Origin: an uncultured Chlorobiaceae bacterium
GTDB lineage: Bacteria > Bacteroidota > Chlorobiia > Chlorobiales > Chlorobiaceae
NCBI GenBank assembly: GCA_903839405.1
Contig: CAIMCD010000027.1
Coordinates: forward strand, 1-64,000
Reading direction: 5' to 3'
DNA: 64,000 nt
The notes beneath the pieces were generated by a model. The model saw only the letters and a list, made by a program, of their open reading frames with translations, was not told the DNA's origin and searched no databases. This document shows, piece after piece, positions 1 to 7,517 of this stretch. Positions within the stretch are counted from its first letter, which is position 1; each line of letters starts with the position of its first letter. The position numbers and the translations under genes are program-made.

Positions 1-2308
1 CACCGCGATTTTGTTCCTGCTCGTGAAGCGGCAGATCATCATACTCCACAAGAGAGCTGTGTTTTTTGGGAGTTGCGCTTTCATCAGTTGCCTCACCCCA
101 TTCATATCCTTGAGCTTTCAGAGTTTGACAAAAAAACTGATGATTCAGTCTCGCTAATGTATCAAGAAGCTCTCCTTCAAGTTCCAGATGATGGAGCAGC
201 GCAATAAATGCGTTTGGATCAACATGCAGTCCAAGCTGCTCTTCGGGAGGGAGGTATGAGCGGTTGAAATGGGTGGCATGGACAAGCCGACTCATGGCGA
301 CAATGGACTCCATTGAGCGGGAGCCATGATGGTATTTTTTGATGTGGAGGAATGCGCGCAGGATTCCTTTATCGGCGATTTGCAGTTTATTGTCGTTGAG
401 TAAATGTGGGGTAAGTCGCTCGAAAAGTGAGCGTAGAAGGAGCGCCCGGCGCACAATGAAATAGGGGTCATCTCGTCCATCCGACTCCTGAGGATTAGGG
501 CCGAGCACATTGAGAAACCCTTTCAGGCGGCTGAGAAAGTCCGGGCCCTTGGCCTCGGCCAGTGCTTCTTGTTTCGTGAATGCATTAAAAGAGGAACGTG
601 TGCCGCCTGCGAAAACAAAAATAGCTTTTCCGATAGGATGGGTGAGCTGACCCTGCTGAAACTCTCCATCCTGCATCGGAGCCAGAAAGAAGCGCAGCCA
701 GCCAAGCGGTTTGCCATCAAGCGTTGTATCGAACTCATCCCAGAAGACCAGGGGTATTTTACCGGAGAGGCCGATATCGCGAATCTGATGAAAGGCGTCA
801 ATCAGCTCATGATGCGTGTTGAATTGGGAGAGATTGAAGGTCAGCGTTTTCGCGGCAATTTTATCCGGATTGGCAACCTTGGCGATCTGCTTGACGGCAA
901 ACGATTTGCCGGAACCGGGAGGGCCGAAGACGGCAATTGAAACAGGCCGCTCTTCATCCCGGTTGCAATATTCCGTAATCAGGTTATAGATGCTTCTGAG
1001 TGACTCAATCTCCTGACGATCAACCGTAACAAGATCTCCGAATTTTCCAATCGGGACATTTTTTAAAGCCTTTTTTGTACCATCCAGCACAATATTTTCG
1101 CATACCTCCTCAAGGCTTTCCTGAGAGCTTGTTTGAAGGATTGTCCAGAAAGATGAGTGAGCTGAACTGTTGATACGAGTGGCCGGGAGTTCAGCCTCTG
1201 CCAAGAGAGCCTCTTTGCTTTTCAGTGCTGATATGACACCGTCAGTAGGGAAGTGCAAGCGGGTTACGGATTCAGATTCGCTACGATAGCCGCTCTTTTG
1301 AAGGTAGCGCATTGCTGCAACGCCCGACTGGATTCCCTTTTTAAAGTCAGGGTTAGCAGGATCAAGTATGATGCGGCGAACAATACCTGCCACAAGGGTA
1401 GAGGTTTTGCCGATCATCATTCCTTTTCCCGGAGCCCAGTCTCCCTCCATGCAGAACGGATCAAAAAGCAGGGTAGCTCTTTTTTCAGACCTGTTTCGTC
1501 CCGGTATCAGCAGCGCACCCGTCGGGCCAAATGATACAATGCAGTATGCCGCATTGGTCAGGCCGTTAACTTCCGGATTGTGGGTCAGTTCCCAGTTGAG
1601 TTCCTCAGCCGTTCTTTCCCATGAAATGCGGGCACTGACCTGAATTTTAGATTGCCGCAAATCATCAATGGTTAAGACAACGACAAGCCGGTCGGCAAAG
1701 TTGGATACAAGGTGCTCCCATAACTCTCCTTTTGCAACGGGGGTGGACATTTTGACAACAATCCACGGTGCCGGTTCATTCAGGGCCGGGCGGCCTACTG
1801 CCTGAGGCCAAAGCGCAGGATCGTTTCTGAAGCCAAGGTCGCTGTCGTCAATGACGATAATGTTTGCATTTACATCTCCCTTTGGAGCATGATTTTCTCC
1901 ATTTTGCCCGGCGGCTCCTTCGGATGGCAAGTCAAGGCCCAAAAAGCGCTCAACCCGCCAGTGAGGGTCACTCAACTCGGTTTTTCCCGGTTCCTTGTCG
2001 CGGTATTGAGCCCATACCGCATAGCTATGCACGTATCGGGGATCGTAAAGGGTTAAAGGGGAGTCGGTTGGAGTATCGGGGCTTATGACCGTAACGGGAA
2101 GCGGGAGGCCGCTCGCCGGCTGGGTTGTCATGGTTGTGATAAGGTCAGCAAGCAGAGCCGCGCTGCCGTACTGCCAGTGCATGTTGCTTTTTGCCTTGCC
2201 CGTCCATTCGGTTTGTTCCTGCAAGGCGCTTGAGTTGTGCGCGATGTTCCAGTCGATGGTAACGTCACCGGTAACAACAATCGAGAAGGCACTTTTTATG
2301 TCCTGCAT
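1..2308 (-). CDS. Large PfkB-like / AAA+ P-loop ATPase / RyR-like domain protein (runs off the left edge, C-terminus missing)
   Basis: Manual reverse-strand translation is open from ATG at 2308 to position 1. N-term MQDIKSAFSIVVTGDVTIDWNIAHNSS (ribokinase/PfkB-like start); Walker A VFGPPGSGKSFAVKQIA near 890-940; Walker B-like IPLVFWDEFD; C-terminal GYEWGEATDESATPKKHSSLVEYDDLPLHEQEQNR resembles an RyR domain. Not in the ORF track because it is truncated. Confidence 0.8.
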   Translation of the reverse strand, partial: MQDIKSAFSIVVTGDVTIDWNIAHNSSALQEQTEWTGKAKSNMHWQYGSAALLADLITTMTTQPASGLPLPVTVISPDTPTDSPLTLYDPRYVHSYAVWAQYRDKEPGKTELSDPHWRVERFLGLDLPSEGAAGQNGENHAPKGDVNANIIVIDDSDLGFRNDPALWPQAVGRPALNEPAPWIVVKMSTPVAKGELWEHLVSNFADRLVVVLTIDDLRQSKIQVSARISWERTAEELNWELTHNPEVNGLTNAAYCIVSFGPTGALLIPGRNRSEKRATLLFDPFCMEGDWAPGKGMMIGKTSTLVAGIVRRIILDPANPDFKKGIQSGVAAMRYLQKSGYRSESESVTRLHFPTDGVISALKSKEALLAEAELPATRINSSAHSSFWTILQTSSQESLEEVCENIVLDGTKKALKNVPIGKFGDLVTVDRQEIESLRSIYNLITEYCNRDEERPVSIAVFGPPGSGKSFAVKQIAKVANPDKIAAKTLTFNLSQFNTHHELIDAFHQIRDIGLSGKIPLVFWDEFDTTLDGKPLGWLRFFLAPMQDGEFQQGQLTHPIGKAIFVFAGGTRSSFNAFTKQEALAEAKGPDFLSRLKGFLNVLGPNPQESDGRDDPYFIVRRALLLRSLFERLTPHLLNDNKLQIADKGILRAFLHIKKYHHGSRSMESIVAMSRLVHATHFNRSYLPPEEQLGLHVDPNAFIALLHHLELEGELLDTLARLNHQFFCQTLKAQGYEWGEATDESATPKKHSSLVEYDDLPLHEQEQNRG

Positions 2309-6097: not shown

Positions 6098-7517
6098 GCT
6101 TTTCGTGGCGCTCAACGTATCGGCGGACATCAAACTTCCTCTTACACCCCGAGGCATTCATATAGCGGATTTTTCCATAGACCGCTCGCTCAAACCACGC
6201 CCGGTCATGCAATCCGCCGAGTGCCCACGCTACACCTGTATAACCATTCGGATCCCGGCCGTCAAGGGCGTAGCGGTCATTGAGGGTGAGGGCGATCTCA
6301 AACGCCTCCTCCGGCGAGCGGCTCCATTCAAGAATCTTTTTTGCCCAGTACATGCGCATGTAGCCGTGGATCACTCCGGTTGTTACCAGTTCACGCTGCG
6401 CGGCGTTCCAGAGCTCTTCGTGGGTTACGGCTTTTTCAAACTCCTCCATTGCATAGAGGTACTCTCTCGGATCGTTGGCGTGTTGCTCTAAAGTTTTCCT
6501 TGCCCAAGCCGGCAGAGCTACAAAAGAGTCGTACTGCTCGTTGTAGCAGCAGTAGTTTTCCGAGAGCTCCCGGCGTACTATCAGCTCCTCAAGAAAGGCT
6601 TTCTTGCTGGCTTCCGGAGCGTTGCATTCGGTAACCCTCAGGGCTATGAATTGTGCACTGATCTGGCCGAAATGGAGGTAGGGGGAGAGGTTTGAGGTCG
6701 CATGGGCATTCGGATCGTTGCGCTCTGCTGCATAGGAGGAGAGCCGGGAGTTGATGAAGCATTCAAGGCACTCTCTGGCGGCTTCTTCTCCTGCTTTCAC
6801 CTCCTCTACGGCGGCTACACTCGGGTCGGCTTGCAGTTGTCGGCGCACCTCCTCCCACTCAACCGAAAGGTGGAAGGGGAGTGTGGCCTCTGCTATCAAC
6901 TCCGGGAATCCGTGAAGAAACTCTGTGAGCAGGGCGGTGATTTTCGGACGGAAGGTTCTGGCCGAGAACTCCTGTTTGGTGGAGGCGATCCAGCAGGGCA
7001 CAATGTTGTGGGCATCAACCTCGTAGAGGGGAACAGGGAGCTGAGCGGCCACGGCTTTTTTCCACGCTCTTGCAATCCTCAGCGGTGAAAAGTCGGTTAC
7101 CACCACTCCGGCGCTCAACTCCGCTGCAAGTCGGGGAAGCTCTTCTTCTGGTTCACCCTGCAGGAGCAAAAAAGGGATGTTGAGCTTCTGAAGAGCGGTT
7201 TCGACCTCCCGGAGCCCTGCAAGCATAAAATCGTAATGGCGGAGTGGAGCTTGAAGAAAAGAGGGGGCAAGGGTAAATGCTACAACAAGCGGCTGCTTCA
7301 GGAGTTCGGCTTTTTTTCGGGCAAAGAGCAGTGCCCAGTTATGCCGCACTCTCTGGTCGCGTGACATCCAGTAGATAACCGTTCCTGCGCAATCAGGGTG
7401 GTCGTTGAGCAGTCGTATGCGCCGGGGATCAATCATAAGGGCACCTCTTTTTATTTGTTCCGAAACCCAATCAGTGCGTTGGGCGGTGCTCGAAATCCTC
7501 ATGTACGAAGTGTACAC
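6081..7517 (-). CDS. Class II deoxyribodipyrimidine photolyase
   Basis: 478 aa; MSRDQRVRHNWALLFA, LHFGQISAQFIAL, ELIVRRELSENYCCYNEQYDS, RMYWAKKILEWS, LNDRYALDGRDPNGYTGVAWALGGLHDRAW are class II CPD photolyase motifs. Start may be internal (MIDPRRIRLLND). Confidence 0.92.
   Translation of the reverse strand: MYTSYMRISSTAQRTDWVSEQIKRGALMIDPRRIRLLNDHPDCAGTVIYWMSRDQRVRHNWALLFARKKAELLKQPLVVAFTLAPSFLQAPLRHYDFMLAGLREVETALQKLNIPFLLLQGEPEEELPRLAAELSAGVVVTDFSPLRIARAWKKAVAAQLPVPLYEVDAHNIVPCWIASTKQEFSARTFRPKITALLTEFLHGFPELIAEATLPFHLSVEWEEVRRQLQADPSVAAVEEVKAGEEAARECLECFINSRLSSYAAERNDPNAHATSNLSPYLHFGQISAQFIALRVTECNAPEASKKAFLEELIVRRELSENYCCYNEQYDSFVALPAWARKTLEQHANDPREYLYAMEEFEKAVTHEELWNAAQRELVTTGVIHGYMRMYWAKKILEWSRSPEEAFEIALTLNDRYALDGRDPNGYTGVAWALGGLHDRAWFERAVYGKIRYMNASGCKRKFDVRRYVERHEKPDRVA

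Follow-up and report, generated by a model that had tools for sequence, protein, structure and literature searches.

A pseudoPfkB–AAA+–RyR–RyR protein of Chlorobiaceae, with a recurrent SLOG(-SLATT) partner gene, as a putative sensor of nucleotide signals

Results

The core gene at the contig end

The window, i.e., the whole stretch of 64,000 nucleotides analysed here, comprises bases 1–64000 of contig C27 (genome G000, an uncultured Chlorobiaceae bacterium) and begins at base 1 of that contig. At this edge, the minus strand from 2308 to 2 is a single open frame (2..2308) of 769 codons with an ATG start and no stop codon up to the window edge, which bears out the original prediction of about 2.3 kb of open reverse strand. 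The frame exits the contig at its end, and a track of closed ORFs would therefore omit it. It is far beyond chance; the gene, referred to below as the core gene, is real, and the order pseudoPfkB–AAA+–RyR–RyR of its product is near certain. The full protein, cut by the end of C27, has roughly 880–900 residues and lacks transmembrane segments. All domains and motifs of the core located in the window below lie on the minus strand.

The missing part is provided by contig C30 (7416 bp), the last 999 bp of which match window positions 1..999 in blastn at 95.5% identity and without gaps, with both contig ends coinciding with the ends of the match. Of the 45 base differences in this overlap, 38 are synonymous. 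C30 carries the ~106 codons that C27 lacks, with the second RyR domain among them (L037:6098-7414, minus strand; stop at 6098), followed by the next gene. The simplest reading of the overlap is that C27 and C30 represent two strain variants of one gene across a broken assembly junction, and the join is supported because contig C34 of another genome of the genus, G056 (L112), has the same two genes intact on a single contig, encoding 901 and 569 residues and separated by 41 bp. That the C30 copy is a recent duplicate of the window gene is a conceivable alternative.

N-terminal ribokinase-fold domain

Residues ~7–375 (1184..2290) are assigned to a ribokinase/PfkB-fold domain, predicted to be non-catalytic, from an AF2 model of moderate confidence (mean pLDDT 65, pTM 0.75) and a Foldseek search of the PDB. 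The best match has E=9.9e-7, and nearly all of the 27 matches at E<=1e-3 belong to the ribokinase superfamily, the best solved relatives being 1-phosphofructokinase, pyridoxal kinase, ribokinase and adenosine kinase (E from 1e-6). The N-terminal domains of 14 family members gave no Pfam match, even at E=10, and a PDB sequence search with the N-terminal profile returned a sole ribosomal match that was put down to chance.

Alignment by hhalign of the family profile with a profile of E. coli RbsK, PfkB and FruK (P=2e-4, probability only 46%) covers part of the C-terminal half of the domain, where the catalytic Asp of the GAGD motif faces Ser or Thr. A GAGD sequence with its catalytic Asp is absent; in this remote alignment the corresponding positions read GxTS or GxxS in the family, and in the window protein hhalign and the family alignment place G300-K-T-S303 (1400..1411) against the anion hole and catalytic Asp of ribokinases. 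Because Ser/Thr stands opposite the catalytic Asp, the domain is probably a pseudokinase, that is, a ribokinase fold that does not act as a kinase. Compared with ribokinase/PfkB family kinases, with which it has the fold in common, it also carries large family-specific inserts. As for the PfkB-like N-terminus proposed originally, the fold stands, whereas no PfkB sequence profile matches; a catalytic PfkB kinase is rejected at the sequence level.

AAA+ module

The middle of the core protein (residues ~430–700; 209..1021) is a complete AAA+ ATPase. The profile match is just over the cut-off (PF00004, E=3.1e-4 over residues 460–529; 21.6 bits vs 21.2 bits), and the catalytic motifs are invariant, in agreement with the AAA+ ATPase expected at the outset. 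Walker A (GPPGSGKS, residues 462–469; 902..925) has Gly462, Pro464, Gly465, Gly467 and Lys468 invariant in nine diverse homologues, and Walker B (DEFD, residues 524–527; 728..739) is invariant in the homologue alignment. Walker A, Walker B (in its longer form FWDEFD), a sensor-1-like strand FAGGT, DF.SRL and HG.RSME vary little or not at all among nine proteins that represent five phyla, the AAA+ motifs being invariant across Chlorobium, Acidobacteriota, Clostridium, Streptomyces and Methylobacterium. Two further invariant residues, assigned by position only, are Arg594 in DF(L/I/V)SRL (527..529), which we take from knowledge of the AAA+ family to be a candidate arginine finger, and Arg664 in HGSRSME (317..319), a candidate sensor-2 arginine. 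The full-length AF2 model is weak in the AAA+ region (pLDDT 30–50), and therefore nothing is claimed from the arrangement of the domains.

The RyR tandem and its putative ligand pocket

The first RyR domain (residues 713–768; 5..172) is cut by the contig end, and this truncated domain scores 19–24 bits for PF02026 (E=1.3e-3 over residues 713–768), below the gathering cut-off of 27.4; it also matches PDB chain 6uhi (E=5e-6). The completed protein on C30 has two PF02026 domains (50 and 33 bits, E=7e-13 and 1e-7), full-length relatives reach 69.8 and 82.7 bits (E=2.4e-19 and 2.3e-23), and all homologues with a complete C-terminus carry two such domains. The RyR-like segment of the original prediction is thus confirmed by the profile search, and extended to a pair.

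The modelled tandem (pLDDT mostly 70–85) matches human RyR3 Repeat12 structures in Foldseek (TMt 0.6–0.7, E=1e-7), and alignments to Repeat12 of animal RyR and to a Bacteroides/human chimera span ~180–217 columns (TMt about 0.5–0.74). In animal RyR, Repeat12 (6uhh, 9l9b) is a tandem RyR pair that forms an adenine-nucleotide-binding pseudo-dimer, to which the core corresponds by Foldseek; unlike animal RyR, the core is not part of a channel and has no membrane-spanning region.

The closest functional reference is a group of phage RyR proteins for evasion of Thoeris (RyDEP) that bind 2'/3'cADPR, one of which cleaves these ligands (Lopez Rivera et al., 2026 preprint, PMC13232231). The ligand and catalytic residues in RyDEP are His75, Trp78, His100 and Asp117, with His75 and Asp117 forming the catalytic dyad (PMC13232231). 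The second RyR domain of the core reads H-x2-W-x21-H-x16-D, with spacing identical to that in RyDEP. The exact quartet is present in the second RyR domain of the C30 copy and in about half of the homologues compared, and the His–Trp pair is conserved in all homologues with a C-terminus except that of Clostridium, where the quartet is degenerate. The first RyR domain reads H/F/H/N; among the aligned proteins its His is mostly kept, Asn occupies the Asp position in all, and Trp is absent in most. From these residues, the tandem is predicted to be an asymmetric pseudo-dimer with one complete and one degenerate pocket. RyDEP and the second RyR domain of the core thus have in common the RyR/R12 fold and the identically spaced quartet, and the two-fold arrangement that is a homodimer in RyDEP is a tandem in the core. 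As differences, the two RyR domains of the core follow a pseudokinase-fold domain and an AAA+ module in one polypeptide, are encoded on bacterial chromosomes or plasmids, and include a first domain with Asn for Asp and mostly no Trp.

The spacing of the RyDEP dyad is preserved exactly in the C30 copy and in many homologues, which invites the reading that the second RyR domain hydrolyses or sequesters an ADP-ribose-type signal under regulation by the AAA+ and PfkB-fold parts, so that TIR/SLOG signalling would be quenched and not relayed, the more so as phage RyDEPs degrade or sponge cADPR (PMC13232231). Against this, the remaining RyDEP homologues tested did not cleave, and binding was seen for six of eight (PMC13232231), the Asp is replaced by Tyr or Arg in several Chlorobium copies that stand as solo genes (see below), and quenching by itself would not call for a complete AAA+ ATPase. 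Overall, we consider an off-switch of this kind unlikely.

RyR domains also occur in other proteins encoded at the loci surveyed, with further RyR proteins among the neighbours of the core. TrkA_N–RyR–RyR proteins of ~600 residues are found at L090:7665-9416 and L088:6201-8051, and one directly adjoins the core in G243; at L102:8375-10711, a Ser/Thr kinase is placed before TrkA_N–RyR–RyR. Fusions of a RelA/SpoT synthetase with LSDAT (SLOG in TRPM) and RyR are encoded at L088:10492-13005 (837 residues) and L091:10895-13429 (844 residues), where an alarmone synthetase domain is joined to an RyR sensor, and further RyR genes lie nearby along with TIR or SLOG genes.

The SLOG(-SLATT) partner and gene neighbourhoods

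On C30, the core stop is followed after 47 bp by a gene for a predicted SLOG-SLATT protein of 573 residues (C30:4329-6050, minus strand). By eye, its N-terminus reads as a SLOG-type Rossmann sequence (GVTGHR...SPLAKGAD), and two hydrophobic pairs are located at residues 295–336 and 440–499. Matches to SLATT_1/3 and DUF4231 are weak and below the cut-offs; one relative has YpsA-SLOG at E=7.6e-5 with SLATT_1 at 1.1e-5, and another SLATT_1 at 2.6e-8. We predict the partner to be a membrane effector. SLATT has been predicted as a pore-forming, nucleotide-responsive effector (PMC7159879, PMC9503650), and cADPR isomers are reported to activate SLOG-ThsA (PMC11204291).

A SLOG gene adjoins the core in six genomes that fall into three well separated groups (Chlorobium G000/G056; G300/G476; G285/G247), the two genes being separated by ~50 bp at most or sharing 4 bp. 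In a fourth group (G491, L091) the SLOG gene is three genes from the core, and in G260 it lies within a stretch that yielded the core in fragments only. The pairing recurs in several distinct parts of the family tree (Chlorobium, Acidobacteriota), on which the SLOG-neighbour label requires at least four changes. The SLOG proteins of G285 and G476 are without transmembrane segments; the 337-residue partner at L092:2877-3890, without such segments, has a weak C-terminal match to low-molecular-weight phosphatase (E=7e-6) in place of SLATT.

Other neighbours include TIR-beta-propeller genes (G285, G247 and G260), DUF4062-STAND genes with TPR or WD40 (G056 and L035), a WD40 protein with a DUF4062-like start (G300), and a SIR2 gene near the core on a Methylobacterium plasmid. 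Of the partners that the original prediction suggested looking for, TIR was thus found, along with SLOG(-SLATT) and DUF4062/STAND, whereas the neighbourhood survey revealed neither CARF/SAVED nor nuclease partners. Some SLOG-SLATT genes of Chlorobium have no core beside them and adjoin TIR, TIR-DUF4062 and nSTAND1 genes instead; these loci (L113–L116, in G046, G011, G051 and G052) constitute a separate candidate conflict system, and the copy in G051 is interrupted by stops.

Distribution and solo copies

Homologues over the whole ORF with 62–67% identity are found in Chlorobiaceae, and more distant ones in other phyla. Within the family, the core has a match in 17 of 61 genomes, and its presence is patchy, with different insertion sites and copies on plasmids. 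Most Chlorobium copies are solo genes that form one clade and occupy a few fixed chromosomal sites with no SLOG gene next door, several of these sites being common to related genomes and many flanked by housekeeping genes. The window copy groups with the core on C34 of G056 in a clade distinct from the solo copies, and G056 carries both kinds. Since most Chlorobium copies stand alone, we infer that a solo role exists too.

Two aberrant copies were observed. The homologue on a Streptomyces plasmid (L039:10001-12127; 708 residues) ends after the AAA+ module with both RyR domains absent, and adjoins two tyrosine recombinases. A Chlorobiaceae copy (L036:9950-11423) has a large internal deletion from the N-terminal ~93 residues to the late AAA+ region, and is probably a decayed gene. 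A phage source for the whole core protein was rejected, with no match in tblastn; only the RyR part matches phage proteins. The number of TIR genes was likewise not used as a sign of TIR dependence. G000 has 18 TIR_2 matches in the whole genome, one of the highest totals of the family sample, in which 0–8 is usual. Four core-bearing Chlorobium genomes have none, and across Chlorobiaceae the core-bearing genomes show no significant difference in TIR counts from those that lack the core (p=0.34; within the genus, p=0.10).

Chromosomal sites that are fixed within clades and in many cases adjoin housekeeping genes would suit a housekeeping or stress regulator in Chlorobium, a solo gene that monitors NAD+/ADP-ribose or adenylate status with no role in conflict and only incidental linkage to SLOG. 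RyR domains are elsewhere fused to TrkA_N/RCK, RelA/SpoT-LSDAT and Ser/Thr-kinase domains, which are typical of general signalling. A core restricted to 17 of the 61 family genomes, its occurrence on plasmids, and the pairing with a SLOG gene in several distant lineages argue against this reading, which appears doubtful. That the core is simply an AAA+ chaperone of the MoxR/ClpX kind, with extra domains of no importance, is highly improbable: some members are weakly bpMoxR-like (E=3e-4 in L040), but the top Pfam match of the window protein is generic AAA and not MoxR, the full-length gene does not have a MoxR/ClpX-like architecture, and the N- and C-terminal domains kept across phyla, with the conserved RyR pair and the SLOG linkage, largely refute it.

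Discussion

Based on the domain content, the conserved RyR pocket and the recurrent gene pair, we propose that the core is the regulatory sensor of a nucleotide-signal-responsive conflict module, in which RyR domains would sense the ligand, the AAA+ module would act as a switch, and SLOG(-SLATT) would provide the output. We assign this reading a probability of roughly 60%; the module is probably anti-phage, and its place in defence is likewise our inference. The TIR, DUF4062/STAND and SIR2 neighbours, the 18 TIR_2 matches of G000, and the patchy presence with varied insertion sites and plasmid copies also speak for it. Against it stand the many solo copies in Chlorobium, the TIR counts across the family, the degenerate quartet of the Clostridium copy, the Streptomyces copy without RyR domains, and the lack of a PADLOC or NCBIfam model. 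The nucleotide-sensing switch of the original prediction, still putative for this protein, is better grounded now, given the 2026 demonstration that RyR domains are able to bind isomers of cADPR (PMC13232231).

In the proposed sequence of events, a NAD+-processing enzyme of TIR or SLOG class would make an ADP-ribose-type nucleotide, which may be bound by the two RyR domains folded together as in Repeat12, the most likely ligand being a cADPR isomer or a related product. Binding would be coupled to the AAA+ ATPase, a putative nucleotide-driven oligomeric switch, such that the AAA+ ring changes state, and the dead ribokinase-fold N-terminus could serve as a second small-molecule-sensing domain or cap the oligomer. 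The output would be relayed to the SLOG(-SLATT) product of the adjacent gene. The SLOG domain of this product may recognise ligands of that same class, and its 2TM SLATT units are predicted to make the membrane permeable.

The loci resemble the nucleotide-centred SLOG/SLATT conflict networks that Burroughs et al. 2015 predicted (cited in PMC7159879) in the combination of SLOG with a 2TM SLATT partner and in TIR, SIR2, LSDAT and STAND neighbours. They differ in that the recurrent partner is a pseudoPfkB–AAA+–RyR–RyR protein. The core system is best regarded as a variant of these known networks, and Burroughs et al. 2015 may already include this exact domain combination. Among PADLOC and NCBIfam models there is none that names the system, and the core and SLOG-SLATT match no PADLOC model as a system.

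Thoeris (the TIR protein ThsB and the SLOG-bearing ThsA) has in common with the core loci the SLOG domain, and TIR genes are present in the wider neighbourhood of some core copies. In contrast to Thoeris, the core loci have no SIR2-SLOG or macro ThsA and no obligate adjacent TIR gene, and add RyR, AAA+ and PfkB-fold domains. At the C30 locus, the ThsA model does not match the partner and C30 carries no TIR gene, so the pair of ThsA and adjacent ThsB that defines Thoeris is absent.

A more specific version, which we put forward tentatively, is a bacterial immune receptor in which a pseudo-dimer of the R12 type would detect a signal of the cADPR class and thereby gate an AAA+ module bearing a dead ribokinase-fold domain, with SLOG-SLATT as the membrane effector. 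If true, this receptor would be a cellular counterpart to the RyDEP sponges of phages, and would provide a precedent in bacteria for an effect of cADPR on domains of the RyR type. The RyDEP work showed in 2026 that phage RyR domains counter cADPR signals, and gives no role for cellular bacterial RyR proteins (PMC13232231). The core family is a defined cellular protein with an RyR tandem that has a RyDEP-like pocket, an ATPase in cis and a putative SLOG effector alongside. With it, one can test whether ADP-ribose-type signals are read through RyR domains in bacteria, and whether there is an ancient precedent for the effect of cADPR on the RyR channels of animals.
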